A stretch of DNA of 64,000 nt. Source: Epilithonimonas sp. JDS (GTDB lineage Bacteria > Bacteroidota > Bacteroidia > Flavobacteriales > Weeksellaceae). The notes beneath the pieces are model-generated. The model saw only the letters and a program-made list of their open reading frames with translations, was not told where the DNA came from and did not search any database. Position 1 is the stretch's first letter. Every line of letters begins with the position of its first letter. Shown in pieces: positions 23,705-53,498 of this stretch. Location of the stretch: positions 310,001 through 374,000 of the forward strand of contig NZ_JAJSAX010000003.1 in NCBI RefSeq assembly GCF_021261315.1, in the 5' to 3' direction. Position numbers and translations under genes: made by a program.

Positions 23705-24739
23705 TTAAACTTGTTTTCTTGAGGAAGACTGCCTGATACAGAGCATTGGCGTTAGCACCAGTTTCTTTTCGATCGTAATTCCTGAAAAGTTATCTTTGAT
23801 ACTTTCCAGAAAAACATTGCCTGATATTTTCCCCATCATTACAGGTGTCTGATCGACTGAACTGATGGATAATTCCATAAACTGCGTAAAAGGCTCATTA
23901 CTGAAACCTATCACACCGATGTCCTGAGGCATTCTGAGTTTTAGATTTTTGATCTCTTTACATACACCAAGAGCAGTGAAATCTGACGCGGAGAAAATCG
24001 CATCCGGTTTTATCTTTCTTTTCCAAAGACTTTTCATCGCGTTGATACCTTCTTCGATGGAGCTTCCCGTATTAATAATATTTTCTTTAATGATCGGCAT
24101 TTTGTAATCTTCCATCGCACTGATGTAACCTTTCAGACGGTTTTGGTAGATCTCCAGATTCTGATCTCCGGAAAGATGGCAGATATTTTTATAACCTTCA
24201 TTAATGAGATGTTCGGTAGCCTGATAGGCACCTTTGTGATCATCAATCGTAATTGTACTGATCCCCGGAATGTCCTTTTTTCTGTCAAAAAAGATAATCG
24301 GTGTATTGGTGGTGCCGACTACTTTTTTCATATATTCCGTATCAGTCGTGTTTTTTGAAATGGAAATAAAAATACAATCCACCTGCGTGTGCAGCAGCGT
24401 GTTCAGCTGTTTCTTTTCAATCGTGGCATCGTCGTGGCTTTGGCAGATGATGACGCGGTAGCCGTGGGGAGAAAGCTCCTCCTCTATTCCACGAATGACT
24501 GACGAGAAAAAGTTGGTATTGATATAAGGAACAATGACACCCACCGTTTTGGTCTCTCCGCTTTTGAGTGCTTTGGCTAGATTGTTCTGCTTATAATCCA
24601 TTTCCTTGGCCATATTCACAACCAGTTCTTTGGTCGCCTGGCTTATTCTGGGATGGTTGTTCAGCGCTCTGGAAACAGTCGCCACACTCACATTCAGTTT
24701 TTTGGAAATGTCATATATCGTGGTGTTTTTTTTTGTCAT
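23705..24739 (-). CDS. LacI-family transcriptional regulator, likely repressor of the pectin locus
   Basis: 344 residues. The N-terminal helix-turn-helix TIYDISKKLNVSVATVSRAL and hinge region (residues about 5-60) are followed by a periplasmic-binding-protein-like effector domain with typical motifs (VGVIVPYINTNFFSSVIRGIEEEL, GVIGFSNEPFTQFM, SSVDQTPVMMGK). It sits at the left end of the pectin locus. Palindromes of LacI-operator type (TGCAATCGATTGCA) occur at three places in the locus, so it is the obvious candidate to bind them. The effector is likely a uronate or KDG-type intermediate (inference). It has its own terminator. Confidence 0.92.
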   Translation of the reverse strand: MTKKNTTIYDISKKLNVSVATVSRALNNHPRISQATKELVVNMAKEMDYKQNNLAKALKSGETKTVGVIVPYINTNFFSSVIRGIEEELSPHGYRVIICQSHDDATIEKKQLNTLLHTQVDCIFISISKNTTDTEYMKKVVGTTNTPIIFFDRKKDIPGISTITIDDHKGAYQATEHLINEGYKNICHLSGDQNLEIYQNRLKGYISAMEDYKMPIIKENIINTGSSIEEGINAMKSLWKRKIKPDAIFSASDFTALGVCKEIKNLKLRMPQDIGVIGFSNEPFTQFMELSISSVDQTPVMMGKISGNVFLESIKDNFSGITIEKKLVLTPMLCIRQSSSRKQV

Positions 24740-24920
24740 GTATTCTTTTCTGAATGATTGTAAATATATAAATAAATCACAACTGAGCCTTACTTTTTAA
24801 TCCAAATCTGTATCAAAATAATCATAATTTTCTTCAACCCTCCAATTTTTTAAAATAAAGCAAATACAATTGTATAATTTTTTATTTTAACTAATGATTA
24901 TTGAAAAATCAATAAGGAAA

Positions 24921-24951
24921 AAAGCCAACTCATCGAAATGAAGTTGGCTTT
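24921..24951 (-). terminator. Terminator of the large pectinesterase gene
   Basis: Arms AAAGCCAACT (24921-24930) and AGTTGGCTTT (24942-24951). On the minus strand the stem is followed by TTTCC within a T-rich stretch. Confidence 0.8.
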
Positions 24952-24966
24952 CGTATTTAAAGTTGG

Positions 24967-27612
24967 TTAGTTTTTGATTAATTTTCCAGTAATCTGACCC
25001 GAATTTGATTTCAAATTGTAGATGTAAATTCCGGTTTTCAAATCTTTGGTTTGAATTGTTATCGTATTAACGCCAGACTTCTGATTGGATTTCTGAATAT
25101 TCTTAACGACTCTTCCATTCATATCATAAATGAAAACATTAATATCAGAAGCACTTTTCAAATCATAAGCGATTGTTACCTGATCTGTAAATGGATTTGG
25201 ATATACACTTAATTTAGCATCTTTGATATTGTTCACCGCCAAAGTTCCGAAGTCAATACTTACAGAAGCAGCCGGCATCCAGTCAAATACAAATGAAGGA
25301 TCTGTTTCTTTCTTGAAAACATTTTCTACCGTGAAAACCTGAGCCTGAGCCGCAGTGATTACCACACCTTCATTTCCTCTTGACACCAATTTGTCAGGCG
25401 TTGCGCCAGCTCCATATCCACCATATTCCACGAATGTAGGATTAAGACCCGCATTCATCGTTGTCCAGCCAACAGGATTCAGCATTGCAGGCGTATTGCT
25501 TCTGATGAAAGCAGATTTCGGACGATTTTGCCAAGGACGGCCAAAGTGGAAATTGCTGATAACTGTTCCATTAAAATCAGTAGTTCCAGCTGCAGGAACT
25601 GTCAGATTACAATCCAGGAACACAAATCCGTATTTTGTACTTGCTTCAGTGGAAGGCGCTGTTACTACACTATTATTACGGTTGATGTAAGTTGTACATT
25701 GATCAAAAACAACAGTCTGACGGCCGAAGATGAAATCAACATTACCTTCGATATAAGAATTCTTGAAATACGCTCTACCAATGCTGTTTCCAAGATATGT
25801 ATCCTGATAACCCAAGATTCTGCAATCATAAAATGCCTGACGGTCGCCTTGCGTTTTAAGAGCTACAGCCTGTGTATTTGCATTGTTTGCTGCATTGGCA
25901 TTTGAATTTACAAAAGTATTGGCAACAGTAATTTTGGAAGCTGTAAAATCATTTCCTAAGATGGCCATCGTCTGTGAAAGTGATGTTCCGTAGCCTTGTC
26001 CTGTATCAGGATTGATGGTTCCGGCAGAAACATTATTCGTGATAATCGTAGTTGCGGCATCATCTCCAATCAAAAACACATTTGATTTGGTTGATGCCAA
26101 AGTTGGTCTTTCTGTGTAAGTTCCAGGTTTGATGTGAAGAATCCATCTTCCTGTATAATTATCCGGAACGGCATCGAAAGCCGCCTGAACAGTTGCATAA
26201 TCTGCAACCTTGCTGTCTTTGCTGATTGTCTTAATGACATCCGGATCTGTTGCTTTGGTCGTAACCGTTGCTACAGAACCATACGAAGTACCAGCAGAGT
26301 TAACCGCAAAAGTTCTTACATAGTACAAAGTAGACTGCTCTACACCGTAAACATAAGATGAAAAAGCGCCCAATCCTGTTCCTGTAGAAACCTTGTCTGC
26401 ATTTTCCAGGGTTGGCGTACTGTTGGTTTTTGACCAGACGATTCCACGGTCTGTCACACTGGCACCGCCCCAATCGGTCACATTTCCGGAAACCACAAAT
26501 GATTTGTTCGTAACCTGAGACTGTGAAGTTGTTGTAACGGTAGGCGCAACAATGCTTGCTAAAGTTGTAAAACTAATTTGTGAGCCATAAGAAGTTCCCG
26601 CAATGTTTGTAGCATAAGCACGGGCATAGTAAGTTGTTCCCGGATTCAATCCAGTCAATGAACTTACATAAGATCCTGTGGTTGCATTTTCGCTGGTTTT
26701 AGAATCATCTATTGTCGGATTCTGATTGGTGCTCCAGACAACACCGCTGGCATTAATTGCACCGCCACCATTGCTGGAAATGCTACCTCCAGAAACTGCG
26801 CTTGTTGTAGAAACGGAAGAAACAGCCGTTGTAGAAACCGTCGCAGGATTTGCAACCGCACCTTCCATAGATCCTGAGATTTTAACATTTCTCAAACCAA
26901 ATTGCTTGTTAGTAGCCGCAGCCACCAAATAGGGATAAAATCTTACATAAAGTTTTTGACTTCCTGTAAGGACAACCGGCGTTGCAAGCGTAGCACTCAA
27001 AGCGGACGATCCATTATTTGGTAATTTAAGCGCCGACTGGATAGAGACTGGATTTGAGAAATCTGCATTCACGCTGTAGAATGCCTGATAATACATATTC
27101 CCTGTTCCGGATGCACCAACTAATGCGTCAATTTTATTAACCGTTAACGTTCCGCCGTTTGTAGGATTTACATCCAATTGAACATAGACATCAGGATTGA
27201 ATACTGTTGTACTTCCCGTTGCGGTCCAGCTGTTTGCAGTTCCGACCAATTGCCAGAAAATCACATTACTGTCCGTAATAGCATCGCCCGTAAAATCTAT
27301 TTTGGTATTGACCTGGTAAGCCACACTTGCAGCTGGATAACTGATGCTGGATTCCAGATTACCTTCCAGAGATTTTTCAGTAATATTCGTGATCAAAGGC
27401 CAGGTAACAGAGGCCGGAGTTGCTTCAAAAGCTTTTGAGGGTTTTAAAGTTCTTTTTTCAGTAGGCAGACCAGCTTCTTTGGAATTTCCATCGGAAACAG
27501 AAGTTGTAACATCGTCACTTGTTGATACTTCGAAATAAGAAACACTGGTTCCGATTCCGAAAATCATTGCAGCACTAAATAGTGCAGCCGGTAAGATTAG
27601 CGTTTTTTTCAT
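24967..27612 (-). CDS. Modular secreted pectinesterase (CE8) with T9SS sorting domain
   Basis: 881 residues. In order: signal peptide (about 1-25), a beta-sandwich region (about 60-270), two fibronectin-III-like modules (about 270-450, with GLNPGTTYYARAYATNIAGTSYGS), a CE8 pectin methylesterase domain (about 460-770), and a type A T9SS sorting domain (LSVYPNPFTDQ to GQITGKLIKN). CE8 catalytic elements are visible: GYQDTYLG, VDFIFGRQTVVFDQC, HFGRPWQ. It should remove methyl groups from homogalacturonan outside the cell, preparing it for PL1 and GH28. It is 47 bp downstream of a PL1 lyase. Confidence 0.92.
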   Translation of the reverse strand: MKKTLILPAALFSAAMIFGIGTSVSYFEVSTSDDVTTSVSDGNSKEAGLPTEKRTLKPSKAFEATPASVTWPLITNITEKSLEGNLESSISYPAASVAYQVNTKIDFTGDAITDSNVIFWQLVGTANSWTATGSTTVFNPDVYVQLDVNPTNGGTLTVNKIDALVGASGTGNMYYQAFYSVNADFSNPVSIQSALKLPNNGSSALSATLATPVVLTGSQKLYVRFYPYLVAAATNKQFGLRNVKISGSMEGAVANPATVSTTAVSSVSTTSAVSGGSISSNGGGAINASGVVWSTNQNPTIDDSKTSENATTGSYVSSLTGLNPGTTYYARAYATNIAGTSYGSQISFTTLASIVAPTVTTTSQSQVTNKSFVVSGNVTDWGGASVTDRGIVWSKTNSTPTLENADKVSTGTGLGAFSSYVYGVEQSTLYYVRTFAVNSAGTSYGSVATVTTKATDPDVIKTISKDSKVADYATVQAAFDAVPDNYTGRWILHIKPGTYTERPTLASTKSNVFLIGDDAATTIITNNVSAGTINPDTGQGYGTSLSQTMAILGNDFTASKITVANTFVNSNANAANNANTQAVALKTQGDRQAFYDCRILGYQDTYLGNSIGRAYFKNSYIEGNVDFIFGRQTVVFDQCTTYINRNNSVVTAPSTEASTKYGFVFLDCNLTVPAAGTTDFNGTVISNFHFGRPWQNRPKSAFIRSNTPAMLNPVGWTTMNAGLNPTFVEYGGYGAGATPDKLVSRGNEGVVITAAQAQVFTVENVFKKETDPSFVFDWMPAASVSIDFGTLAVNNIKDAKLSVYPNPFTDQVTIAYDLKSASDINVFIYDMNGRVVKNIQKSNQKSGVNTITIQTKDLKTGIYIYNLKSNSGQITGKLIKN

Positions 27613-27659
27613 TGTTAGTTAAAGTTAATAGTTGTGAAAATGGTTTTTAATCTTAAAAT

Positions 27660-28976
27660 TTATTTTACAATTACCTTTTGAACGTAGGAATTATCAGCAG
27701 TTTTAACTTCGAATAGTTTCACCCCTTTTCCAATTTTTTTAAGTGAGATCGCATTGATGGTATTGTCACCTTTAGAAAGTGTTCCATTGTAAACGACCCC
27801 TTCAGATTTGCCAGACATATCCATCACTTTGATTTGAACTGGCTTGTTATTGTCTTTGGAAAAAACCTTTAGAGAAATTTGTTCAGAAGCTGGATTTGGG
27901 TAAAATGTAGTAGCTGCATTAAGTTTAGAATTCACTTCGCCCGTTGCCAAAAAAAGACAATCCGTTGGCTGCAAAAGAACAGCGCCTGCACCAGCCATTA
28001 CTGTTTGTTTCACGTCTGTAGAGGCAATTTTGTTGATGGAATAAGGCGGTACGAAAGCCGTTCCGGATCCCACCATCGTTCCTGTAGCACCAGAGAACGT
28101 GTTGTCAACCAACTGTGCTGCAGTGAATTTCCCCGTTTCTAATCTGATAGGATTTTTAACACCCTCAAAATAATTGCCTTCAATCAAAAGATCTGCTTTG
28201 AAACCTGCGTAGATACAATAGTTGCTGACAGAACTATTGAAATAATTATTCAGCAAATGAACTTTTCCAAATCTAACTCTCGGCATTCTTTCCTTCACGC
28301 CAGGTCCCCACCAGCAGTACTGCATAGTGATTCTTAGTTTTCCATCATCCTGAGTAGCATCATCTCCTGATCCAAAAAGATTGGAAAAACGGTGGTCATT
28401 GCTTCCGCCAGAACCTCCAGGAATTGGTGCTTTCAGATATTGGAATTTCGTCCAGGTTACCGAGATCAGGTCAGACGCATTTTTGATATCAAGATTACCG
28501 TCAAGCGCATCTTGAAAAGTGCAATGATCTACCCAAACGCTGGTACAGTTGTCGATCGTCAAATTATCATTCCCATCCACATCATAAGCGCCAGGGCCTT
28601 CAAATGTGATATTTTTGATTAAGATATTGGAACTGTTTTTTGCATACAGAATTCCGGATCCACCGGAAGTAAGATCTACAGAAATTAATTTTGCGCCGGC
28701 TAATCCTAAGATTGATTTCCCGGTTTGATTTTGAAGCGTCAGTCGGCCGGCTGTTGGAAATGTAATTTCTCCAGAGATGTGAATTACTTTTACCGCAGCA
28801 GCATTGATTGCTGTTTTCAACTCTGCATAAGTCGTCACTACAGTCGGGGTAGCAGTTCCGCCGCCGGTCACGCCATTTTGTGATGCCCAGCCGGAGACAG
28901 GACATTGTTGTGCTTTTACATTGATCTGAAATATAGACGTTATCAGAAACGCAGACATTAAGATTATTCTTTTCAT
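27660..28976 (-). CDS. Secreted pectate lyase, PL1 family, with T9SS sorting domain
   Basis: 438 residues: signal peptide (ending VKAQ), a PL1 parallel beta-helix and a C-terminal T9SS domain (FYPNPASEQISLKVFSKD to SYVQKVIVK). PL1 hallmarks are VWVDHCTFQDALDGNLDIKNASD for calcium and substrate, and GVKERMPRVRFGKVHLLNNYF carrying the catalytic Arg. It cleaves de-esterified polygalacturonate by beta-elimination, giving 4,5-unsaturated ends that GH105 and KdgF/KduI handle. It is probably co-transcribed with the downstream pectinesterase. Confidence 0.93.
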   Translation of the reverse strand: MKRIILMSAFLITSIFQINVKAQQCPVSGWASQNGVTGGGTATPTVVTTYAELKTAINAAAVKVIHISGEITFPTAGRLTLQNQTGKSILGLAGAKLISVDLTSGGSGILYAKNSSNILIKNITFEGPGAYDVDGNDNLTIDNCTSVWVDHCTFQDALDGNLDIKNASDLISVTWTKFQYLKAPIPGGSGGSNDHRFSNLFGSGDDATQDDGKLRITMQYCWWGPGVKERMPRVRFGKVHLLNNYFNSSVSNYCIYAGFKADLLIEGNYFEGVKNPIRLETGKFTAAQLVDNTFSGATGTMVGSGTAFVPPYSINKIASTDVKQTVMAGAGAVLLQPTDCLFLATGEVNSKLNAATTFYPNPASEQISLKVFSKDNNKPVQIKVMDMSGKSEGVVYNGTLSKGDNTINAISLKKIGKGVKLFEVKTADNSYVQKVIVK

Positions 28977-29096
28977 TGGATAAGTATCTATTGAAGATTA
29001 AATTGATTTTAGAATTATGATCTCAGGAAAGAATCATATTTTTTATAACAGAATGATAATTAGATAATTGAATACATTCTATTTTAGGAAAAAGGA

Positions 29097-29133
29097 AAAA
29101 AAAAGTTTGATGAAAACGGGTTTCATCAAACTT
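29097..29133 (-). terminator. Terminator of the 260-residue T9SS protein gene
   Basis: A 13-bp perfect stem: AAGTTTGATGAAA (29103-29115) with its complement at 29121-29133. On the minus strand a long T-run follows. Confidence 0.88.
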
Positions 29134-29189
29134 CTATTAATGAAAAATTTAATTCATGTAAATTTTAAATCTTCCTGGTTGGCAGTTTT

Positions 29190-29972
29190 TTATTTTAATA
29201 AAACTTTCACTGATTTTTCTCCAGCTTCAGATTTAAGATTTACAATGTAGATTCCTTTGTTGTTGATTTCAAAGTTAGTATCAGCAGACGCTTTCATTGT
29301 TTTAACCAAAGATCCGTTCGCGTTGAAAACATTAACCTGAGTATTTTTGGAGTCAAGATCTGCAACATAGATTTTGTTACCAGCAGAGAAAACGTTAGCT
29401 TTCATAGATTTCTGAACGTCATTCACGCCCAATACAGTTGTGCCAACGTTTGTAGCAGTAATTTTGTAAAGGTTTAGAGACTGATCACCGTAGAAATATA
29501 AGTTAGTTGCAGGACCTGCGTACTCATAAGTGTAGATTAAACCATCTGAAGAGTTAGAATAAGTTTTAGATCCAAGAACTGCAGTTCCGTTTCCGATGTA
29601 AAGTGTACGGTCTCCAGAACCTCCGTTTTTGTACCAAACAGTGATCACAGAGTTTCCGTTCACTTTTAGAACAACATAACGTTGTGTTGGCGTAGTGTTA
29701 GTTCCTGTAGAAGTGTAACCGCCTCCATTCAATTTGAAACGCTTTGATGCAGAGTATCCATCAGAGAAATTTGCAGTATTCGCTTCTACCTGTGCGAAGT
29801 TTACAACAGTTGCAGGTCCCGGAACAAGTCCAAGGTTGTTTTTTACCACCGCAGTTGTTTCACCAGCAGTTACCGGCCAGGCTGCACTAGAGAAGTCAAA
29901 AGTAGTTTGTGCTTTGAAAGAATTAACAGAAGCTACTACTGAAAAAGCTAAAAGAAGTAATGATTTTTTCAT
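29190..29972 (-). CDS. Small secreted T9SS protein with an unassigned beta-sandwich domain (paralogue A)
   Basis: 260 residues: signal peptide (ending SFKAQ), one domain of about 165 residues starting TTFDFSSAAWP, and a T9SS type A tail (residues about 190-260, ending EKSVKVLLK). The domain has the landmarks KRFKLNGGGY, ITVWYKNGGSGDRTLYIG, YTYEYAG and LNLYKITATNVGTT. It has no recognisable catalytic residues. It is a clear paralogue of the next gene upstream, and the same landmarks recur in the C-terminal part of the PL1 lyase at 44778-47360. A carbohydrate-binding role is likely but inferred. The promoter carries LacI-type operators. Confidence 0.8.
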   Translation of the reverse strand: MKKSLLLLAFSVVASVNSFKAQTTFDFSSAAWPVTAGETTAVVKNNLGLVPGPATVVNFAQVEANTANFSDGYSASKRFKLNGGGYTSTGTNTTPTQRYVVLKVNGNSVITVWYKNGGSGDRTLYIGNGTAVLGSKTYSNSSDGLIYTYEYAGPATNLYFYGDQSLNLYKITATNVGTTVLGVNDVQKSMKANVFSAGNKIYVADLDSKNTQVNVFNANGSLVKTMKASADTNFEINNKGIYIVNLKSEAGEKSVKVLLK

Positions 29973-30009
29973 GTGTAAAATAATTTAATTAGTTGTTTTA
30001 ATAATTTTA

Positions 30010-30023
30010 TGCAATCGATTACA
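30010..30023. promoter_or_regulatory. LacI-type operator, site 1
   Basis: TGCAATCGATTACA, one base from the perfect palindrome TGCAATCGATTGCA. It lies 38 bp upstream of the paralogue A ATG and 26 bp after its -7 box. Confidence 0.75.
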
Positions 30024-30049
30024 CAAATGTTTGTAATAATTCGACGGTT

Positions 30050-30077
30050 CTAATATAAAATTATTATTTAATATCAA
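30050..30077 (-). promoter_or_regulatory. Promoter of paralogue A (TTG-N17-TATATTAG)
   Basis: On the minus strand TTG, 17 bp and TATATTAG, followed by AACCGTCGA. The same -7 box and following bases recur in front of paralogue B. Confidence 0.55.
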
Positions 30078-30216
30078 GTTATTTTTTTTTAATTTAACGT
30101 TAATTTTTTTTAACAATAGAACAAAACCCTTTATTAATGGTGCATTCAGAAGATAAAAAATTGAATAAAAAATTAAATGACTGTTTTAAAATGGCATTTT
30201 TTAAGTCAAAAATCTA

Positions 30217-30230
30217 TGCAATCGGTTGAA
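30217..30230. promoter_or_regulatory. LacI-type operator, site 2 (degenerate)
   Basis: TGCAATCGGTTGAA, two mismatches from the consensus palindrome, 207 bp from site 1. It lies upstream of the paralogue A promoter, where it could support looping. Confidence 0.5.
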
Positions 30231-30380
30231 TCAAATTGACTAAAAACGGAGCCAATTTTGTAAAATTTGAGATTTTGAAATAATTATCAAATTCAAAATA
30301 TAAATTTTAATCCTTCAACACTATCAATGTTTCGATATTAAGCAATAACAATTTAGATGCATAAAAATATTGAATCAATA

Positions 30381-30417
30381 AAAAACCCTGTAAACAATTT
30401 GCTCACAGGGCTTTTTT
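30381..30417 (-). terminator. Terminator of paralogue B
   Basis: CCCTGT / ACAGGG stem with a 13-base loop. On the minus strand it is followed by TTTTTTATTG. Confidence 0.8.
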
Positions 30418-30455
30418 GAAAAAAAATTATGAAAATATTTACTATTCGGTTTTAA

Positions 30456-31274
30456 TTATTTTAAAAGGACTTTCACTGATTTCTCACCAGCTTCAGACTT
30501 AAGATTTACAATATAAACACCTTTCGCATTGATCTCAAAGTTAGCGTCAGCAGAAGCTTTAGCAGATTTCACTAGAGTTCCGTTAGCTGAATAAATATTG
30601 ATACTGGTGTTTTTAGATTCCAAATTAGAAACATAAATTTTGTTGCCGCTGGAGAATGCATTTGCTTTCAATCCAGATTTTACATTATCGACTGCTAAAG
30701 TTGCAGGAAGTTCTGTTGTACCAACATTTGTTGCTGTAACCTTGTAGAAATTAAGAGCCTGATCTCCTGCAAAATAGATATTTCCAGCTGCACCAGTATA
30801 TTCATAAGTATAAATAATACCATCTGTGGAATTTGCGTAAACGTTTGAACCTAAAACATTTGTCCCATCACTTAAATAAAGTGTACGATTACCAGACCCA
30901 CCGTTTTTGTACCAAACTTTTATTGTACTCGGACCATCAACTTTCACATAAAAGAAACGTTTGATCGGCACACCATAGTTAGCTCCACTTGTGGCATAAC
31001 TAGCTCCATTCAATTTCAGACGCTTAGTTGGCTTGTAATCCGGAGTTACACCAGACTCTACAAATGTTGCGTTATTGTTTTCAATTGCACCCAAATCTGC
31101 CGTTCCCGTACCTGGAATAAATGCGATGTTTTTAACCAAGGTATTAGATCCGTAACCAGCTGCCACAACTCCATCTGTTCCACCAGTCCAAGTTGAGAAA
31201 TCCCAAACAGTCTGAGCATTGATCGTAGTAGCAGAAAAGCCTGCAATCATTAAAGAAAATAATAGTTTTTTCAT
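30456..31274 (-). CDS. Small secreted T9SS protein with an unassigned beta-sandwich domain (paralogue B)
   Basis: 272 residues: signal peptide (ending TTINAQ), a single domain starting TVWDFSTWTGG, and a T9SS tail nearly identical in its last 20 residues to that of paralogue A. Shared landmarks are TKRLKLNGASY, IKVWYKNGGSGNRTLYLS, YTYEYTG and LNFYKVTATNVGTT. WDFS...KR(F/L)K...YKN suggests a carbohydrate-binding beta-sandwich; no enzyme motif is visible. It is separated from paralogue A by a terminator and its own promoter with operators, so the pair arose by duplicating gene plus promoter. Confidence 0.8.
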   Translation of the reverse strand: MKKLLFSLMIAGFSATTINAQTVWDFSTWTGGTDGVVAAGYGSNTLVKNIAFIPGTGTADLGAIENNNATFVESGVTPDYKPTKRLKLNGASYATSGANYGVPIKRFFYVKVDGPSTIKVWYKNGGSGNRTLYLSDGTNVLGSNVYANSTDGIIYTYEYTGAAGNIYFAGDQALNFYKVTATNVGTTELPATLAVDNVKSGLKANAFSSGNKIYVSNLESKNTSINIYSANGTLVKSAKASADANFEINAKGVYIVNLKSEAGEKSVKVLLK

Positions 31275-31311
31275 GATAAATTAATTTTATAGTTGTTTTA
31301 AATAATTTTTA

Positions 31312-31325
31312 TGCAATCGATTACA
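31312..31325. promoter_or_regulatory. LacI-type operator, site 3
   Basis: TGCAATCGATTACA, 38 bp upstream of the paralogue B ATG and 25 bp after its -7 box, the same position as site 1. Confidence 0.75.
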
Positions 31326-31350
31326 CAAATACATCTCTTAATCGACGGTT

Positions 31351-31384
31351 CTAATATAAAATTATTTTCAAATAAGCGCGCAAA
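31351..31384 (-). promoter_or_regulatory. Promoter of paralogue B (TTTG-N22-TATATTAG)
   Basis: On the minus strand TATATTAG (31351-31358) is followed by AACCGTCGA, identical to paralogue A. The nearest well-placed TTTG is at 31381-31384, 22 bp away. Confidence 0.5.
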
Positions 31385-31540
31385 TTTTTAATTTATTTTT
31401 TATTTGAATATTAAATTTGATTAATATAAAATTAAAATATCCTTTATTTACTGAACAAAACCATTAAATGAATGTTTAATTAAAAATGAATTTAAGGAAA
31501 AATAATCTGCGAAAAAGTTAATTTTTGATTCCAAATTTGA

Positions 31541-31554
31541 CGTAATCGATTGCA
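31541..31554. promoter_or_regulatory. LacI-type operator, site 4
   Basis: CGTAATCGATTGCA, two bases from the perfect palindrome, in the opposite orientation to site 3 and 229 bp from it. Confidence 0.6.
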
Positions 31555-31602
31555 TAAAATCAACCGAAATCTCGTCCAAAAAATGAATTATTGAGAAAAA
31601 AT

Positions 31603-31632
31603 GAAAAAATCCTAATTTTTAAATTAGGATTT
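31603..31632 (-). terminator. Terminator of the esterase gene at 31662
   Basis: AAATCCTAATTT (31607-31618) pairs with AAATTAGGATTT (31621-31632). On the minus strand the stem runs into TTTTTTC. Confidence 0.85.
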
Positions 31633-31661
31633 CATATTCTAAAAATGGCCAATTTCAATTT

Positions 31662-42570: not shown

Positions 42571-43569
42571 TTATAGTTGATTATTTTGGTCTAATGTTTC
42601 TAACTTTTTGTCCAGATCCTGGTAGAATTCGGTTTCTGTTTTAATGCCGTTTGGTTCTTGGGACCAAGCGCCCAGAAAGTAATAGGACACATTTTTGTTT
42701 TTCTTGAAAACCACAACGTGCGTTGATTTCGTCTGAACATATTTATCAAAACTTTCTATTGGATAGAAAACCGCCATCCCGAGATTGTCCTCTTTTTTGG
42801 CTAAAGTCTGCTGGCCGTAAGTGGCGATGTAAGCCCATCTTTTATTTTTACTAATGACCTGCTTGAACGGAATATCCTTGATGGCAACAATCCCAGTACA
42901 CAAGCCGGAGATAGCATTGTTCAAAGACAAATCTACTTTTACAAAACGATCTTTGTTGAAGATTGTCAGTTTCGATTTCAAATCTACGGCATCTCCCCAC
43001 GTTTTCCATCCTGTGTAATCGATTGCAGCGTAGGAACTGGTTTTGTCATTTGCTACTTTTACAAAAGTACTTTTTACCGTTTTGAATGTCTCCACAAAAT
43101 CATTTTGCTCATCATATCTTCCGTAGGAACCCACACCAATTGTGCGACCAGACTTTAAAATATCCTGTCCCCAAGGTGCATCGTGGTGGTAAGATTCGAA
43201 ACCGTCTTGCCCAACTTCCGGTAAAACTAAAGTATTAACTTTCTTACCAAAAATATCTGTGGCGTTTCTCCAATCGAGGTACAATCTGTAACCAACTTGA
43301 TTATTTTCCAGACCAATTCCTTCGTATCTAATATAATAAGAATGATCCGTGTGTTCTGCGGGAATTTGTAATTCGGTCACATTTTTGAAATTCCCACCGA
43401 CATATTGGTTACCTTCCCATTTCCCGCCTTCTTTGACTGATAATTCGGCGTATGAGAAAGGTTTGCTTCCGTCCTTTTTGATCTTCTGGATCACATCGGT
43501 CTGGGCTGAACAGCTAATGAAACTGAGCAGAATTCCAGAGTAGATGGATTTGAGGATGATGTTTTTCAT
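42571..43569 (-). CDS. DUF4861-type lipoprotein of the pectin locus
   Basis: 332 residues; lipobox in ILLSFISC (Cys about 20). The body has features of the DUF4861 family found in polysaccharide loci: GYRLYLDWRNATDIFGKK, GFESYHHDAPWGQDILKSGRTIGVGSYG and YYFLGAWSQEPNGIKTE. Conserved His/Asp in YHHDAPWG look like a possible active or metal site, but no reaction is assigned. It is located directly upstream of GH105, suggesting action on uronate-containing oligosaccharides. Confidence 0.7.
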   Translation of the reverse strand: MKNIILKSIYSGILLSFISCSAQTDVIQKIKKDGSKPFSYAELSVKEGGKWEGNQYVGGNFKNVTELQIPAEHTDHSYYIRYEGIGLENNQVGYRLYLDWRNATDIFGKKVNTLVLPEVGQDGFESYHHDAPWGQDILKSGRTIGVGSYGRYDEQNDFVETFKTVKSTFVKVANDKTSSYAAIDYTGWKTWGDAVDLKSKLTIFNKDRFVKVDLSLNNAISGLCTGIVAIKDIPFKQVISKNKRWAYIATYGQQTLAKKEDNLGMAVFYPIESFDKYVQTKSTHVVVFKKNKNVSYYFLGAWSQEPNGIKTETEFYQDLDKKLETLDQNNQL

Positions 43570-43622: not shown

Positions 43623-43628
43623 CAAATA

Positions 43629-44657
43629 CTACTTTTTTATTTTGAAATTCCAATTGTCTTTTCCTGACAGGATGTTTTTTACGGAATATTCTTTGGCTTC
43701 TTTTTTTGATAATTGATGAGACCATGAAACTCTTTCTTTGGAATTAGCTCCGATTCCTTTGGAGTTATATTCTCCGTAGAAAGTAGTTTTCTCAGCATCT
43801 GGCTTATTCCAATTGTGCCAGCCTTCCGATTTAATCACATTGCTAATTTCTGTATTAATGAAAACTGTTTTTGCAAATGGCCGCCAAGGTCTTCCGAGAT
43901 AAACCGATTGGGATTTTGCATCGCCAGTGATTTTGCAATCGATGAAAACAAAACCATACTTTTTACCTTCCGGCGTTGAAGCTGCCGTGAGATAAGTTGC
44001 AGATTCTTTTGCGAAAATTTCACACTTCTCGAAAACTGCCGTTGCCGCTCCGAAAATGAAATCCGTAGTTCCTTCGATGTAACAATTTTTGAAATAGTGG
44101 CGAACTTCTTTTGTTTTTGAAGGATCATCCTGTTGGCCTTTCAAATATAAGGTATCCTGAAAACCTAGAAATCTGCAGTTTTCAAAAATTGCGCGGTCGC
44201 CTGTAATTAAAACAGCAACAGCCTGACCAACTTTTCCTGCATCATTTTGGAAAGTGATATTTTTTGCCGAAAAATCATTAGAAAAAATAAAAATAGTGGA
44301 AGAACCAGTCGTTCCCATTTCTTTACCTTCTGCATTTTTCTTTGAAGCAAAATCGTCATTAATAATAATCGTTTCACTAAGACTTTCGCCTTCGAAAGTA
44401 ATTGGACCTTTGGTTGCCGGAACTGTTATTTTTTCCCTGTAAGTTCCTTTTTTGATAAGAATTTTAGTAGTCGTTTGAAGTCCGTTTTCGACAGCATCAA
44501 TTGCTTCCTGCGCTGTTTTAAAATCTCCGCTTCCGTCTTTTGCAACTGTATAAACTTTTTCAGAATCATTGGCTCTGATGCTGAAAGAATTGATACAAAT
44601 CAAAACTAAAGTGAAAGAAAAAAACAATAAAAGGTTTTTGAGGTCGGAATGCTTCAT
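43629..44657 (-). CDS. Pectinesterase, CE8 family
   Basis: 342 residues with an N-terminal signal segment (LLLFFSFTLVLICINSFS). CE8 motifs: GFQDTLYLKG, TTDFIFGAATAVFEKC, YLGRPWRPFAKTVFINTE. No sorting tail or extra modules, so probably periplasmic. It is the third CE8 in the locus, similar to the one at 34491 but with an insert after the QDT motif (QQDDPSKTKEVRHYF). Confidence 0.93.
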   Translation of the reverse strand: MKHSDLKNLLLFFSFTLVLICINSFSIRANDSEKVYTVAKDGSGDFKTAQEAIDAVENGLQTTTKILIKKGTYREKITVPATKGPITFEGESLSETIIINDDFASKKNAEGKEMGTTGSSTIFIFSNDFSAKNITFQNDAGKVGQAVAVLITGDRAIFENCRFLGFQDTLYLKGQQDDPSKTKEVRHYFKNCYIEGTTDFIFGAATAVFEKCEIFAKESATYLTAASTPEGKKYGFVFIDCKITGDAKSQSVYLGRPWRPFAKTVFINTEISNVIKSEGWHNWNKPDAEKTTFYGEYNSKGIGANSKERVSWSHQLSKKEAKEYSVKNILSGKDNWNFKIKK

Positions 44658-44716: not shown

Positions 44717-44777
44717 TGAATTTAACAATTAAATAATGTGATCTGAAAACTACAGATTGACACTAAATTATGTATGG

Positions 44778-47360: not shown

Positions 47361-47617
47361 CTAAAATTTATTTAATTGAGTTAATTGTGTTAGTTGTAAG
47401 GTCTAATAAATGTGAAAAATTATTATAATTAGTATTTCTTCTACGAACCTATTTTCATTAACTAATTCTAAATAATAGTGTTTAATATTTTTTGAATAAA
47501 GCCGACAATGGCCTTAGAATCAGCTCTAACAGAGCTTTAAAACCCTGCTAGAGTGAATCTTCAAAAAAAATTAAAAATATAAAAACTTAAAAATTCAAGT
47601 GGATAAGAATCCGGTTT

Positions 47618-49438
47618 CTAATAACCGTAATCCTGTTGCAGATTGTAATTTGACAAGATGATGTCATTATAAATCGGGAACAATTCTTTTCTGTTTGCTT
47701 CGAAATATTGAGCATAACCTTTTAATGGACTATTAATGTAATCTGCTGTTACAGCTACTCTCCAATTGACAGCTTTGTAACCCGTCGGAGTACCTGACTG
47801 AGCAGGCGTGTAATAAACATCGGCTCTACTCACACCTGCAGGCACATAAACATCTATTGCATTAAGTGCTGCCTGAGCAGTTTTTGTCTTATCATAAGGT
47901 GAGTCCTTGTAATATAAAACAGTAGGTGTATTGGTATACTGACCAGTTCCATTTTGAAATTGAGCAAGTTTTACTCTGGTTTCAGCAATTTTTGTAGCCA
48001 AAAGATTCCAACGGATCAGGTCATATTTTCTAAGACCTTCTCCTCCAAACTCCAACAATCTCTCGTGAACGATGTAATTGAAGAATCCTGTTTTATCGGT
48101 TGGGATCGTTCCTGCCTGTCCTAAGTTTCCTGCATACGCACGGTTTCTAACCTGCTGCACAGCATTCACTGCTTCTGCGGATGGCGAACCGTTGATTTCG
48201 TTATCAGCTTCTGCAAACATCAATAGGATATCTGAGTAGCGGATCATCGGCCAGTCGATTGCAAGGTTTTGTGCAGTACCGGTAATGCTGGTCCAAGACT
48301 TTCTGAATTTTCCATCTGTACAAAGAGCACCTGTTGCAAGGATTGCCTGATTTGCAGCGTTAATTTGCATAGACGCCACGGTAAGATCTCTTCTCACATC
48401 AAATTTTCCGAACTCGTAGAAATAAACCGGAAGCGCGTTTACACCGCCACTACTTGCCCAATTGGACGAAGCATCGTGTCTCATTCCGTTGTAGTAACCA
48501 ATTTTACTGTCTGTAGCAGCATTACCTCCAAAAGCGCCAACTGCGAAAATCACTTCGTGTGCAGCATCTTCGGAATTATCATGCAATGCTCTGAATACTG
48601 CTTCAAAACTTGCATTCAGGCCGTGATCTCCTTTTGTGATAATATCTTTACATTCATCATAAGCGATTTTGTAGTAAACCTGAGGATTAGAACCCTGAGC
48701 CATCACTCTTGGTGATCTTCTAAGAGAATATCCTGCTCTCGCCAAAGCGATTCTTGCTCTCAATCCTTTTACAGCTGCTTTTGTAATTCTTGTATTGCTG
48801 CCTCCTGCTTCTGATCTCCAAGGCACCAAAGTAGCTGCCTTTGCAAGATCCGCAATCATTTGTTCGTAGATGACGTCTCTGTCTGTTTTTGGAAGATAAA
48901 CGGTTTCCAAATCAGAAGATGGAACCAATTGCATTGGAACATCGCCCCAGTTTTTGATCAGATCATAATAGAACTGTGCTCTCAAAGTGTAAGCTTCTCC
49001 TAAATACCTGTCCATCAATTTTTTATCTGTTGTAGAACCTGTCTGGTAAACCGGAGATAAAGGAATATTTTTGATCACGAGGTTTGCTCTTTCGATTCCG
49101 GAATATAATTTTAAGAAAGGCTTGTTCAGATCCGGGTTGGAAGTACACGCACCATAAGTACTAAGTCCTCTTCTGTCGTTACAGTTATAATCTCCCGAAG
49201 TTTTGAAATCGTCTGCTGACTGCGGGAAATATAAATTGAGTCTTTGCCCGTAACCATCATCACCAATCACCTGATTGTAAACACCAATCAATGCAGTAAA
49301 AGTATCTGCTGCACTATCAAACTGCTGTTCTTCATTAGAGTTAGAAATATTTTCTGCATCCAGGAACTCGTCACAAGATGTCAATGTGAAGAATATAATT
49401 AAACAGCTTAGAATTGAAATTAATCTGTTAAGTTTCAT
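47618..49438 (-). CDS. SusD/RagB-type surface glycan-binding lipoprotein
   Basis: 606 residues; lipoprotein signal with Cys in FFTLTSCDEFLD (acidic residues after Cys favour surface export). Typical SusD features: GIERANLVIKNI, YLGEAYTLRAQFYYDLIKNWGDVP, VRNRAY and HERLLEFGGEGLRKYDLIRWN. It caps the SusC barrel and captures oligogalacturonides. Located 12 bp downstream of susC, the standard pair order. Confidence 0.95.
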   Translation of the reverse strand: MKLNRLISILSCLIIFFTLTSCDEFLDAENISNSNEEQQFDSAADTFTALIGVYNQVIGDDGYGQRLNLYFPQSADDFKTSGDYNCNDRRGLSTYGACTSNPDLNKPFLKLYSGIERANLVIKNIPLSPVYQTGSTTDKKLMDRYLGEAYTLRAQFYYDLIKNWGDVPMQLVPSSDLETVYLPKTDRDVIYEQMIADLAKAATLVPWRSEAGGSNTRITKAAVKGLRARIALARAGYSLRRSPRVMAQGSNPQVYYKIAYDECKDIITKGDHGLNASFEAVFRALHDNSEDAAHEVIFAVGAFGGNAATDSKIGYYNGMRHDASSNWASSGGVNALPVYFYEFGKFDVRRDLTVASMQINAANQAILATGALCTDGKFRKSWTSITGTAQNLAIDWPMIRYSDILLMFAEADNEINGSPSAEAVNAVQQVRNRAYAGNLGQAGTIPTDKTGFFNYIVHERLLEFGGEGLRKYDLIRWNLLATKIAETRVKLAQFQNGTGQYTNTPTVLYYKDSPYDKTKTAQAALNAIDVYVPAGVSRADVYYTPAQSGTPTGYKAVNWRVAVTADYINSPLKGYAQYFEANRKELFPIYNDIILSNYNLQQDYGY

Positions 49439-49450
49439 TTTTGTTTTGAA

Positions 49451-52400
49451 TTAAAAAGTTATATCAACACCTGTTAAGAAAAATCTGCTTCTTGGGAAAG
49501 CGGCGTAATCCACTGCTGGAGTAAGTGTACTTTTTCTTGTACTTACCTCCGGATCATAACCTGAATAACCGGTAATTGTAAAAACGTTATTTGCTGTTGC
49601 GTACAGTCTTAAATTTGTAATACCAATGGCCTTTAGCGAATCTTTGTTTAATGAATATCCAACTGTTACGTTGTTCAATCTTAGGAAAGATCCGTCTTCG
49701 ATAGCGTATGAATGCAAGAAATAGTTACCTCCTGTAGGAACCCACATTGTTGTATTAGCGTTAAGCGCTGCCAAAGCTGTAGGATCTGTTACTTTCACAC
49801 CATCATCGCCAAACCATCTCCATCTGTCAGCCATTTCTGCAAGCATATTCTGGTCTGTGTACTGATATTTGGTTGTAAATTCGATTTTGTTTGCGTTGTA
49901 AACCTTGTTCCCAACAGAGAAGTTGAAGAACAAACTCATATCGAAATTTTTGTATTTGAAAGTCTGGTTGAAACCTCCATAAAATTTCGGCTGTGCATTT
50001 CCTAGATCTGTTTGATCTTTTACATCGATGATGCCGTCGCCGTTCAGATCTTTCAATTTCAAATCGCCTGGCTGTGGTAATCTGTTTCCAAGCGCTACAG
50101 ATGAACTTGAAGGAATTCCAGCTTTAAGTCTATAAGTATTGTTAGCAGAATTGAAATCAAAATCACTTATCTCATATCGGCCTTCGGTTACATAACCATA
50201 GAACATTCCAACTGGTTGGTTGATCTGCACTTTGAAGTCAAATAAGTTGTTTACCCATCCTGAAGGAACTAAATAATAGTCTGTTCCGGATTGTGTCAAT
50301 GATCCTAAACTTTTGATCATATTTTTGTTTGCAGCAAGGTTGACATCTGTTTTCCAGGTGAAGTTTTCATTACCAACTACGATAGCGCCTAATGTAAATT
50401 CCAAACCTTTGTTCTGAGTCTTCCCGGAATTCTGATATTGGTATTCATATCCTGAAGTCTGAGGAATTTTTGCCAATAAAAGCAAATCTTTGGTATCCGT
50501 GATGTACGCGTCAATTGATCCGTAAACTCTTTTGTTGAACACGGTAAAATCCAAACCTGCATTTTTAGAAACTGTAGCTTCCCATTTGATATTTGGGTTT
50601 GGCATGATGTTTCCTGGCGCAGTACCTGTGATGATACCTACTCCGCCTGTGTATCCAAATGCACTTGATGGATTGTAGAACGTATCAAATAAGAACGATG
50701 CAATTCTGTCGTTTCCGGATTGTCCGTAGCCTAAACGAAGTTTTAAATCGTTCACAATTTTAGAATCTTTCAGGAAGTTTTCTTCTGCAATTTTCCAAGC
50801 CAAAGATGCTGACGGGAAGTTTGCCCATCTGTTATTAGGTCCAAAAGAGTTGGATCCGTCTCTTCTTACTGAGACCGTTGCGATATATTTGTTGTTATAA
50901 ATATAATTTGCTCTTCCAAAAAATGAAGCTAATCTGGATGGAGGCAGTACACCTGCGTATGGAGCATCCTGGATCAATCCTGCCGGAGGTGCTGCAAGAA
51001 TAATATTTGCAAACGCTTCTTTTGCAGAGAAAGATGTAGGAATATAACGGACAGTCATATCTGATTTGTTACCGTCAGTCTGTACAATCTCCTGACCCAA
51101 AAGGAAATCCAATTTGTGCTCACCTATTTTTTTCTTGTAAGCAAGTGTATTGGTATTGGTAATTCTTCTAGTCTGTGTATTTGTCAACTGCACTACAGAC
51201 ATATCGGAGTTGATTCTTGAAAGATACGTTTTAGGACCGGAGAACTGTTGGATATCCTGATCATTCTGCACATATCCGATTGTACTTTTGAAAGTCAAAT
51301 CCTTGAAGATATTGTAAGTAATAACTCCGTTTAAGAATAAGTTGTCTGCATTATTGTATTTGATTTCGTTGTTAGAAAGCAATACAGGATTTACTAGGTT
51401 GGTAACCGCAAAATCGTCAGGTGCGAACTCATCAGATCCGCCGCCGGTATTCAGTCCATTTTCAAAAGGTCTGTAACGGATAACGTTTCTAAGTCTGTTT
51501 GTACCCTGAGAACCAGCTGTTGCAGTTCCGGCACCGTTGATAAAAGTCTGGCTGTATCTTGCCGTCAATCCAACTTTTAATTTTTTGCTGATATCAAAAT
51601 CATATTTGAAGTTGGCCATATTTCTTTTATAGCCGGAATTGATCATAATTCCATCTTCCTCAACATGGTTTAATGACAATGTAAAAGCTGAAGTTGCAGA
51701 TCCACCGGAGATATTCAGGTTGTGTGTAAAGTTGAAAGCTTCCTTACCGAAAACTTCTTCCTGCCAGTCTCTTTTTTGGATGGTTTTGTACTTCGCAATA
51801 CCCGCATCAACTATCTGTCCCTGCTCATTTCTGATTTCCTGGTAAGATCCGTAATTTTTAATAAAATTTTCGTACTGTTGAGGATCTCCGTCTCTATTGT
51901 ACAATTCGTATTGATAAAGTACAAAATCGTAAGGACTCATGACGTCCAGAGTTTTTGCAATGGTACGAACACCAGTATAACCGTTGTAGTTTACAATCGT
52001 TTTAGTGTTTTTTCTACCACTTTTTGTTGTGATTAGAACTACTCCATTAGCTCCTCTCGCTCCATAGATAGAAGTAGAAGAAGCGTCTTTCAAAACCTCG
52101 ATAGATTCAATTTCTTTTGGAGAGATTAATGACAGAGCGTTGTCCATCTGAATTCCGTCAACGATGTAAAGCGGTGCGTTATCCTGTGTGATAGACGTTC
52201 CACCTCTCACCTTGATTTCCGGATCAGCTCCCGGAGATCCTTCCCCGAAAGTAACCTGAACACCGGCCATTCTACCCTGGATCGCTTCTGCAGCACTGTT
52301 TACAGGCATATCAGCAAGCTGTTCTCCTTTCACAGAAGAAATTGAGTTGGTAACATCTTTCTTTGAAACGGTTGTATAACCTACCAAAACAACTTCATCA

Positions 52401-52741
52401 ATGTTCTTTTCCTTGTTACCATCATATTTTGCTAGAGCAACATTGATAACAGTTTTCCCATTCACTTCCACCTCCTGCTCTTCGAATCCTTTTGAACGAA
52501 TGACAAGAGTTGCATTTTTAGGTACATTAAGCTCATACTGTCCAGCCTTGTTGGTCATTGTAGAGAATTTGGAATTTCTTACCGTAATTTCTACGTTCTG
52601 TACAGGCTTGTTCTGGTCGGAAGTAATTTTTCCCGAAACCTTAATTAGTTCTTGAGCTAAACCAAATGCCGGCAATAAAAAGACTGATGCGATCGTCGTT
52701 TTTATAAAAGCACTTTGAATACCTAGTTTTAAACCACTCAT
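49451..52741 (-). CDS. SusC/RagA-type TonB-linked outer-membrane transporter
   Basis: 1096 residues. Signal peptide (ending FGLAQ), carboxypeptidase-regulatory-like domain (about 33-115), TonB-box region (DEVVLVGYTTVSKKDVTNSIS), plug with KVRGGTSITQDNAPLYIVDG and SIYGARGANGVVLITTKSG, then the barrel ending FPRSRFFLTGVDITF. It imports pectin oligomers with SusD using TonB energy. A LacI-type operator and promoter lie upstream (52814-52886). Confidence 0.96.
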   Translation of the reverse strand: MSGLKLGIQSAFIKTTIASVFLLPAFGLAQELIKVSGKITSDQNKPVQNVEITVRNSKFSTMTNKAGQYELNVPKNATLVIRSKGFEEQEVEVNGKTVINVALAKYDGNKEKNIDEVVLVGYTTVSKKDVTNSISSVKGEQLADMPVNSAAEAIQGRMAGVQVTFGEGSPGADPEIKVRGGTSITQDNAPLYIVDGIQMDNALSLISPKEIESIEVLKDASSTSIYGARGANGVVLITTKSGRKNTKTIVNYNGYTGVRTIAKTLDVMSPYDFVLYQYELYNRDGDPQQYENFIKNYGSYQEIRNEQGQIVDAGIAKYKTIQKRDWQEEVFGKEAFNFTHNLNISGGSATSAFTLSLNHVEEDGIMINSGYKRNMANFKYDFDISKKLKVGLTARYSQTFINGAGTATAGSQGTNRLRNVIRYRPFENGLNTGGGSDEFAPDDFAVTNLVNPVLLSNNEIKYNNADNLFLNGVITYNIFKDLTFKSTIGYVQNDQDIQQFSGPKTYLSRINSDMSVVQLTNTQTRRITNTNTLAYKKKIGEHKLDFLLGQEIVQTDGNKSDMTVRYIPTSFSAKEAFANIILAAPPAGLIQDAPYAGVLPPSRLASFFGRANYIYNNKYIATVSVRRDGSNSFGPNNRWANFPSASLAWKIAEENFLKDSKIVNDLKLRLGYGQSGNDRIASFLFDTFYNPSSAFGYTGGVGIITGTAPGNIMPNPNIKWEATVSKNAGLDFTVFNKRVYGSIDAYITDTKDLLLLAKIPQTSGYEYQYQNSGKTQNKGLEFTLGAIVVGNENFTWKTDVNLAANKNMIKSLGSLTQSGTDYYLVPSGWVNNLFDFKVQINQPVGMFYGYVTEGRYEISDFDFNSANNTYRLKAGIPSSSSVALGNRLPQPGDLKLKDLNGDGIIDVKDQTDLGNAQPKFYGGFNQTFKYKNFDMSLFFNFSVGNKVYNANKIEFTTKYQYTDQNMLAEMADRWRWFGDDGVKVTDPTALAALNANTTMWVPTGGNYFLHSYAIEDGSFLRLNNVTVGYSLNKDSLKAIGITNLRLYATANNVFTITGYSGYDPEVSTRKSTLTPAVDYAAFPRSRFFLTGVDITF

Positions 52742-52813
52742 AGATATTTTTTAGTTTTATAATTAGTAATATTTTTTACTTATATATAGTTGTCAAAAAT
52801 TTGTCTCAAAAAA

Positions 52814-52827
52814 TGCAATCGATTGCA
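52814..52827. promoter_or_regulatory. LacI-type operator, site 5 (perfect palindrome)
   Basis: TGCAATCGATTGCA, a perfect 14-bp palindrome, 72 bp upstream of the susC ATG and 29 bp after its -7 box. Confidence 0.8.
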
Positions 52828-52856
52828 CTTGATTTTTTAACTATTTCTTAACTCGA

Positions 52857-52886
52857 CTAAACTAAGATTATTTTCCAATTGGCAAA
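52857..52886 (-). promoter_or_regulatory. Promoter of susC (TTTG-N18-TAGTTTAG)
   Basis: On the minus strand TTTG (52883-52886), 18 bp, TAGTTTAG (52857-52864), one mismatch to the consensus, followed by TCGA. The TAnnTTAG form matches the paralogue A and B promoters. Confidence 0.55.
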
Positions 52887-53484
52887 TAAAAAATTTGAAT
52901 ATTTTATTAATATTAATGTAACATAGACGAATACAAAAATGAGACAATAATCATATTTAATTGATTAACAAACACTTAAAAAATTTAAAAATTCAAAATA
53001 AAGTCCACATTAAATTTGAAATTAACATTTTTTAACATCTGAAGCCGCTGATTAAAATCATTAAATCCGAAAATTACCGGCATTTTAATTAACCAAAAAT
53101 TAACTTAAGAATCCCAATTTCTGTGAAATCTAATTTTTTTCCGTCAAAAAAGCGTATTTTAAAATCGACAGCAATCCAACTAATTCTAAATTAAATACAA
53201 ATATTTATATTATTGATTATCAGTTATTTAAAACTGAACAATGATTTCTTTATCTAGAATTTGAAGTTTGAGCAACCGTTTTTGGAAAATTGCACAGAAT
53301 TTATCATTTACGGTAAAATTCTTAGGCTTAAAAATCTGCTGTACAAGCTATAATTAATATAAAAATAAAAATAATAAACTGATTTATAGTGTTTTAAAAA
53401 TTAATTCGAAATTTCCTTTTCCAGTTAAATTTTATATTTATATTTACAAAAATTATTTGCTGTGCCAAATTGTGCAATATTCAA

Positions 53485-53498
53485 TGCAATCGATTACA
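53485..53498. promoter_or_regulatory. LacI-type operator, site 6
   Basis: TGCAATCGATTACA, 35 bp upstream of the kduI ATG, identical in sequence to sites 1 and 3. Confidence 0.78.

Follow-up and report, generated by a model that had tools for sequence, protein, structure and literature searches.

A 14-bp palindrome, TGCAATCGATTGCA, stands in front of pectin-utilization genes of Epilithonimonas sp. JDS (Flavobacteriales; Weeksellaceae), and comparative genomics indicates that its copies are operators of the LacI-family regulator whose gene opens the same locus, a protein that we predict to repress pectin and galacturonate use (probability roughly 0.88). The DNA analyzed, referred to below as the window, is a stretch of 64,000 nucleotides (NZ_JAJSAX010000003.1, positions 310,001 to 374,000; C19:310001-374000 in our contig numbering) from a genome of 4.17 Mb in 25 contigs (G000). 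Searches used the 14-mer TGCAATCGATTGCA, and TGYAATCGATTRCA is the form that was counted across genomes; genomes, contigs and loci carry the handles G, C and L where they have to be told apart.

A palindrome associated with a LacI-family regulator

The regulator has the architecture of the LacI/GalR family, an N-terminal LacI helix-turn-helix (HTH) followed by a periplasmic-binding-protein-like sensor domain (PF00356, 51 bits against a cut-off of 27; PF00532, 106 against 22; PF13377, 84 against 26.5), and CcpA is its closest solved relative by sequence. The palindrome is of the type that LacI-family proteins bind, even and with CG at its center, and the window protein is its predicted binder; even CG-centered palindromic operators belong to 1173 of 1303 LacI-family regulators (PMC4052901). 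Within the family, an arginine at position 20 of the helix accompanies a G at NT-6 (PMC2978694); that G is present in TGCAATCG, and the motif TG...CA fits the VATVSR of the window protein.

The window contains one exact, four one-mismatch and three two-mismatch copies of TGCAATCGATTGCA, where a dinucleotide model expects 0.003, 0.04 and 0.58 respectively; matches with up to three mismatches number 12 against a shuffle mean of 5.8, and none of 100 shuffles reached 12. The whole genome has 3, 9 and 21 copies in these classes against 0.17, 2.4 and 37.7 expected from the model as trained on the window. As two-mismatch copies thus lie at or below background genome-wide, we gave them no weight on match alone; the sites at 30217 and 31541 are supported by position and conservation, not by match. 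A sequence-only reading of the window had named six palindromes, and all six are found where it placed them (one exact, three with one mismatch and two with two; Table 1), are intergenic by the annotated gene positions, and are far above chance as a set. Its assignment of the neighboring genes to susC, kduI, two small genes for proteins of the type IX secretion system (T9SS) and a LacI regulator agrees with Pfam and NCBIfam/TIGRFAM profiles. Its list had overlooked a near-copy within a coding gene at 43014, and likewise the copy at 8867.

The motif and the regulator occur together across genomes. Among 22 Epilithonimonas genomes TGYAATCGATTRCA is found in 15/15 with kduI and 0/7 without (Fisher P = 6e-6); three of these seven (G068, G115 and G119) have a LacI gene and four are without any LacI-HTH gene. 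In Chryseobacterium it occurs in 14 of 20 genomes with an ortholog of the regulator (taken in handle order, G020 left out) and in none of 20 with only a paralog as best LacI match (P = 1.7e-6). Orthologs at E<=1e-100 are encoded by 117 of 296 family genomes, and the exact 14-mer is present in 32 of the 296, namely 30/117 with an ortholog and 2/179 without, G153 (73% complete, copies beside kduI) and G096 (P = 1.4e-11); related genomes not being independent, these three P-values are too optimistic. Of the 16 Chryseobacterium genomes with an exact copy, 14 have it no more than 35 kb from lacI on the same contig. The window ortholog is moreover the only LacI-HTH protein in 7 of the 15 motif-bearing kduI genomes (G078, G111, G135, G138, G141, G144 and G147). 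As a separate observation, the ortholog of Chryseobacterium G183 (L120) adjoins a rhamnogalacturonan-type locus (RGL11, GH106, GH28, RhaT).

The association extends beyond the family. A relative at E<=1e-75 is found in 72 of 395 genomes of the order, 36 of these in family f3, which is probably Flavobacteriaceae. Twenty of the 36 f3 loci were examined; the protein there is an ortholog 50% identical or more in 17 and a more distant relative in three. All 17 orthologs have a site before a pectin-type gene (GH28, SusC, pectinesterase, and in L272 and L278 pectate lyase, Pel9A-like and PF09492), in the form TGYAATCGATTRCA in 15 and as a one-base variant in L264 and L274; the site shares an intergenic region with lacI, which usually adjoins uxaA-uxaB, in 16/17, and a second site precedes kduI or its operon in 7/17 within the stretch examined. 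The helix AATVSR is present in all 17 and the sites are TG...CA, fitting the Arg20-G rule. Two of the distant relatives (41-42% identical; L279 and L281), with PS or SS in the recognition helix, have TACAATCGATTGTA beside kduI, possibly a sister regulon, and the third has no site at its locus.

The sequence-only reading had proposed the protein encoded at 23705-24739 as binder of the palindromes, a prediction backed here by co-occurrence, synteny, conservation of the footprint and the scarcity of rival LacI proteins. At kduI, an alignment of 15 genomes leaves the 14 bases of the operator unchanged within a diverged region.

Predicted members of the regulon

The exact palindrome of the window precedes a SusC/SusD pair that stands together with pectin-active enzymes, as in a pectin polysaccharide-utilization locus (SusC: TIGR04056, 818 bits; SusD, PL1/CBM77, pectinesterases, GH28, GH88/105-type and GH43 by Pfam). 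Transcription from the susC promoter probably covers the genes at 31662-52741 in a single long transcript or a few of them, and the uronate catabolism genes at 53534-63954 probably share one transcript. We recovered no site upstream of the other enzyme genes, in line with the sequence-only reading, but this need not mean that they escape control: since the genes between susC and 31662 run head-to-tail with short gaps, all of them could be under the susC operator. In scans of 800 bp upstream (at least 396 bp where the contig stretch ended) no site with up to three mismatches precedes the T9SS pectinesterase (5 genomes), PL1/CBM77 (12) or the pectin methylesterase (PME) at 43629 (12), nor the PL1 at 27660 in 11/12 genomes, G147 having one with three; the remaining enzyme genes were scanned in the window. 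It had also been claimed that the locus has no hybrid two-component, SusR or extracytoplasmic function (ECF) regulator gene, and this holds for the 29 locus open reading frames (ORFs) scanned with Pfam.

Both small T9SS genes have a proximal operator and a second, distal one. The distal site of T9SS gene 1, with one good and one degenerate half-site, is at exactly 207 bp with up to three mismatches in 9 of the 12 genomes having the gene and is more degenerate in the alignment in G008, G141 and G147; T9SS gene 2 has its distal site 229-232 bp away with up to three mismatches in 11/12, none being found in G147. An AlphaFold2 model of the protein encoded at 30456-31274 is beta-rich (mean predicted local distance difference test score, pLDDT, 81.6; predicted template-modeling score, pTM, 0.62), and its top Foldseek matches, 8wc1 and 8x8h (E 3e-7; template-modeling score by target 0.76-0.78; 18-22% identity), are the carbohydrate-binding domain of a putative pectate lyase. 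From the modeled fold, the two paralogs are probably stand-alone secreted pectin-binding proteins.

A regulon inside the pectin locus had been proposed, with a whole-genome search for the 14-mer at up to two mismatches as a check on its confinement; that search contradicts confinement, as two of the three exact copies lie elsewhere. The sequence comparisons support a wider regulon, to which a second contig would contribute an orphan GH28 polygalacturonase together with an orphan SusC/SusD pair, and a third contig pdhA; the three exact copies precede the susC of the window, this GH28 and this pair. Orthologs of the orphan GH28 have a site of up to two mismatches 154-353 bp upstream in 15/15 genomes including that of the window. 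The orphan SusC orthologs have one in 6/6, although they were found through the palindrome itself and so are not independent evidence. A further copy, TGCAATCGTTTGCA, is located 100 bp before 4-hydroxyphenylpyruvate dioxygenase (HPPD; C1:709494, L005); HPPD is a weak candidate member, a site of up to three mismatches being near the same place in 7/15 genomes. The remaining genomic copies comprise three one-mismatch copies in coding sequence and, outside the window, two-mismatch copies that include C19:275180 and C23:4360 between called ORFs. Between the operator and the orphan GH28 we also observed a perfect 16-bp inverted repeat, CTTCGACTCCGCTCAG (L020:4946-5021), whose core is found in the loci of 5/14 GH28 orthologs and which resembles a dispersed hairpin repeat.

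The one-mismatch copy near pdhA, the gene for pyruvate dehydrogenase E1 alpha (TIGR03182, 429 bits), is at the same place with up to three mismatches in 16 of the 18 Epilithonimonas genomes that carry LacI (all but G144 and G037) and in none of the three LacI-less ones with a pdhA found, G150 having yielded no pdhA. In the alignment of these 16 upstream regions conservation is largely limited to the core of the site, one block near the predicted start and a short far-end stretch. G068, G115 and G119, which have LacI and no kduI, all keep the site (1, 3 and 2 mismatches), and the window-type LacI is the only LacI-HTH protein in G068 and G115. No site of up to three mismatches occurs in the scanned pdhA upstream stretch of Chryseobacterium (8 genomes with the ortholog and 9 without), and among three other genera G006 alone has a three-mismatch match, close to its probable pdhA start. 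Codon 20 is probably the true start of pdhA, preceded by a -7-like box, TATTTTTG; since the operator ends 86 bp upstream of this box, control could be of either sign. The divergent PAP2-like gene is a rival target of the same site. We consider the odds about even that the pectin LacI also controls pdhA in Epilithonimonas, a pectin signal thereby adjusting the pyruvate node, and that it has been kept for pdhA in three kduI-less species, two of which are also without the polygalacturonase. If so, a catabolic regulator would have gained a central-metabolic gene and outlived its original locus.

Copies within genes were set aside as operators because they are located in coding sequence. This concerns the copy at 43014, whose in-gene match recurs in G132 and G135 and is absent from eight other relatives displayed, and the uxaB copies of relatives. 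Within uxaB, TGGAATCGATTGCA or a one-base variant occurs in 9 of 10 relatives displayed (e.g. L099:942), with the exact 14-mer in G078; this in-gene copy is not in the window and may reflect codon constraint.

Table 1. Coordinates of the regulator, the predicted operators and promoter boxes, and the associated genes (window positions unless a contig is given)
Feature	Position	Strand	Details
LacI-family regulator, 344 aa	23705-24739	-	PF00356 HTH and Peripla_BP domains over cut-off; proposed pectin-regulon repressor
T9SS gene 1	29190-29972	-	paralog of 30456-31274, 53% identical; heads PL1 (27660) and T9SS pectinesterase (24967)
Proximal operator, T9SS gene 1	30010-30023		1 mismatch; 37 bp before start; invariant in 12/12 genomes aligned, including that of the window
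Putative -7-like box, T9SS gene 1	30050-30057	-	TATATTAG; conserved block; operator 26 bp downstream
Predicted distal auxiliary operator, T9SS gene 1	30217-30230		2 mismatches; 207 bp from proximal
T9SS gene 2, small T9SS-type secreted protein	30456-31274	-	T9SS domain TIGR04183 over cut-off
Proximal operator, T9SS gene 2	31312-31325		1 mismatch; 37 bp before start; <=2 mismatches in 11/12 genomes, 3 in G147
Putative -7-like box, T9SS gene 2	31351-31358	-	TATATTAG; operator 25 bp downstream
Predicted distal auxiliary operator, T9SS gene 2	31541-31554		2 mismatches; 229 bp from 31312
susC-susD-PL1/CBM77-PME-DUF4861-GH105-GH105-GH43-GH28-esterases (and one more PME)	31662-52741	-	Pfam; gaps 4-257 bp, one strand
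Operator of susC operon, exact palindrome	52814-52827		72 bp before susC start; <=1 mismatch in 14/14 susC genomes, including that of the window
Putative -7-like box, susC	52857-52864	-	TAGTTTAG; TTTG 18 bp upstream; conserved block; operator 29 bp downstream
Putative -7-like box, kduI	53439-53446	+	TATATTTA; conserved block; operator 38 bp downstream
Operator of kduI operon	53485-53498		1 mismatch; 35 bp before kduI start; identical in 15/15 kduI genomes, including that of the window
kduI, kduD-like, uxaC, cupin, kdgK-like, yhcH-like, kdgA-like, MFS, uxaB-like, uxaA-like	53534-63954	+	Pfam, NCBIfam for KduI; uronate catabolism
Seventh near-copy	43014-43027		1 mismatch; inside DUF4861 coding sequence 42571-43569; role doubtful
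Two-mismatch copy	8867-8880		inside response-regulator gene
Exact copy	C1:656370		330 bp before orphan GH28 polygalacturonase (L020:5215-6702)
Exact copy	C1:1361141 (L019)		before orphan SusC/SusD pair, unassigned substrate
One-mismatch copy	C12:255317 (L284, L007)		between pdhA and divergent PAP2-like gene

Predicted mode of control and its alternatives

Flavobacterial promoters have a -7 box of consensus TAnnTTTG (PMC9723704), and putative boxes of this kind precede susC, kduI and both T9SS genes, that of T9SS gene 2 being the same in 11/12 genomes, 73-78 bp before the start. The four proximal operators would accordingly occupy the first transcribed bases, 25-38 bp downstream of these boxes, which is a placement of the repressor type and not the usual one of an activator. 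Without pectin, a LacI dimer on these operators would block transcription from the four promoters, and additional operators at distances of 207, 229 and 671 bp would strengthen repression, probably via DNA looping; the susC operator would act in this way for kduI, and the kduI operator for susC. A pectin breakdown product would then release LacI, and the likeliest inducer is 2-keto-3-deoxygluconate or another uronate intermediate because genes for a kduI-kduD-kdgK-kdgA-type pathway follow. Upon release the secreted pectin-binding proteins, lyases, esterases, SusC/D import and cytoplasmic uronate catabolism would rise together, and the regulon would also take in the orphan polygalacturonase, the orphan SusC/SusD pair and, in Epilithonimonas, probably pdhA. 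A hint of looping comes from the operator pairs with kept spacing (207, 229-232 and 649-673 bp). The susC-kduI operator spacings in 15 genomes are 649 (two genomes), 659-660 and 668-673 bp, which suggests classes separated by roughly a helical turn (P = 0.008 in a post hoc test with three classes), and the phase relation among the distances of the three operator pairs depends on the helical repeat assumed.

Three other accounts of the palindromes were weighed. An origin by chance, as a composition pattern of an AT-rich genome, would suit the two-mismatch copies, which are at or below expectation genome-wide (21 versus 38), but exact copies reach 17 times expectation and lie before susC, a polygalacturonase and a SusC/SusD pair, the kduI operator is invariant amid diverged DNA, and TGYAATCGATTRCA is missing from every Chryseobacterium genome sampled without the ortholog; on the shuffles, the dinucleotide model and co-occurrence we reject this origin, which keeps a negligible probability. 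Binding by another LacI protein is very improbable. The source genome has only three LacI-HTH proteins, with the recognition helices VSVATVSR in the window, VSVATVSY in L016 (beside a sugar kinase/MFS/LamB operon) and ISTSTVSR in L017 (beside a TonB receptor and GH100). In favor of a rival, L016 and the window protein have V-A in common at the first two positions of recognition, and an exact copy occurs in G096 without a close ortholog of the window protein. Against it, L016 carries Y in place of the R of the TVSR group, seven Epilithonimonas genomes combine the motif with the window ortholog as sole LacI-HTH protein, the motif of family f3 adjoins that ortholog in nearly all loci examined, and the genes of both rivals are adjoined by different CG-centered palindromes, GTTAAACGTTTAAC and CGTTTGCGCAACCG. 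These palindromes (L021:10338 and L022:5124) are candidate operators of the kinase/MFS/LamB operon and of the TonB receptor/GH100 operon.

The third account keeps the window LacI as binder and makes it an activator or dual regulator of these promoters in place of a plain repressor. The pdhA site, which is upstream of its -7-like box and not over the promoter, and the distal T9SS sites, some 160 bp upstream of their -7 boxes, would suit it; we nevertheless hold it unlikely, as all four proximal operators stand in the expected blocking position.

Repression of pectin and galacturonate use by the window LacI through these palindromes is therefore the account that we prefer, and several observations weigh against it. 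The C-terminus of the protein shows no tetramerization tail of the kind found in E. coli LacI, and any loop would thus have to form through a different contact. Besides the non-independence of related genomes noted above, 6 of the 20 ortholog-bearing Chryseobacterium genomes are without TGYAATCGATTRCA, and G249 and G020 have lacI with no site of up to two mismatches in a 20-kb stretch. The regulator and its sites also come apart: G096 has an exact copy before uxaC and a LacI relative only 34% identical, and G150 (88% complete) keeps the orphan GH28 and its site with no LacI-HTH gene found. Conversely, G068 and G115 keep a LacI ortholog 87% identical in different gene surroundings (L203 and L205), with kduI and GH28 missing and the pdhA site as the only one found there. 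Finally, no site of up to three mismatches for autoregulation is present within 800 bp upstream of lacI in 18/18 Epilithonimonas genomes; 72% of studied LacI regulators are autoregulated (PMC4052901).

Relation to known systems

In searches of open-access literature, a collection without most subscription journals, we found no description of this LacI orthologous group, its motif or the pdhA link. Parts of the system nonetheless resemble known regulators. E. coli GalR and B. subtilis CcpA combine a V-A or M-A recognition helix with TGTAANCG-type half-sites; CcpA needs HPr, and both differ from the window LacI in their regulons. Enterobacterial Cra/FruR is likewise a LacI-family protein tied to central carbon genes, but as a global regulator, whereas here one central gene, pdhA, would be joined to a pectin regulon.

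Within the same phylum, KdgR (BT0487) and UxaR (BT0824) of Bacteroides are LacI-family regulators of uronate catabolism, acting on glucuronate and galacturonate, as predicted by comparative genomics (PMC3878776; with UxuR also PMC4052901). The first of these sources places the rhamnogalacturonan loci of Bacteroides under hybrid two-component systems, assigns mainly cytoplasmic steps to LacI regulators and gives the KdgR regulon a limited number of periplasmic or extracellular genes. Unlike KdgR and UxaR, a single LacI apparently covers here the SusC/D locus, the secreted binding proteins, uronate catabolism and pdhA. Regulators of monosaccharide type that also take in SusC/SusD and extracellular enzymes are ManR and AraR of Bacteroides, which belong to the GntR and NrtR families and concern other sugars (PMC3878776); these link SusC/D with sugar catabolism, and the principle is thus not new to the phylum. 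Thermotoga UxaR similarly places pectate lyase, transporter and galacturonate catabolism under one regulator, which is of the GntR family and has a different motif (PMC3750489).

Control of polysaccharide loci in Flavobacteriales is usually credited to other regulator types. The present comparison defines an operator for pectin use in a large group of this order, names one candidate regulator and lists testable targets, and it suggests that a single LacI sensor in the cytoplasm could command an entire SusC/D locus, with secreted binding proteins at one end and 2-keto-3-deoxy-6-phosphogluconate (KDPG) aldolase at the other. Set beside the systems above, the genomic evidence supports a conserved LacI-type pectin regulon that is ordinary in principle and has one unexpected candidate member from central metabolism.

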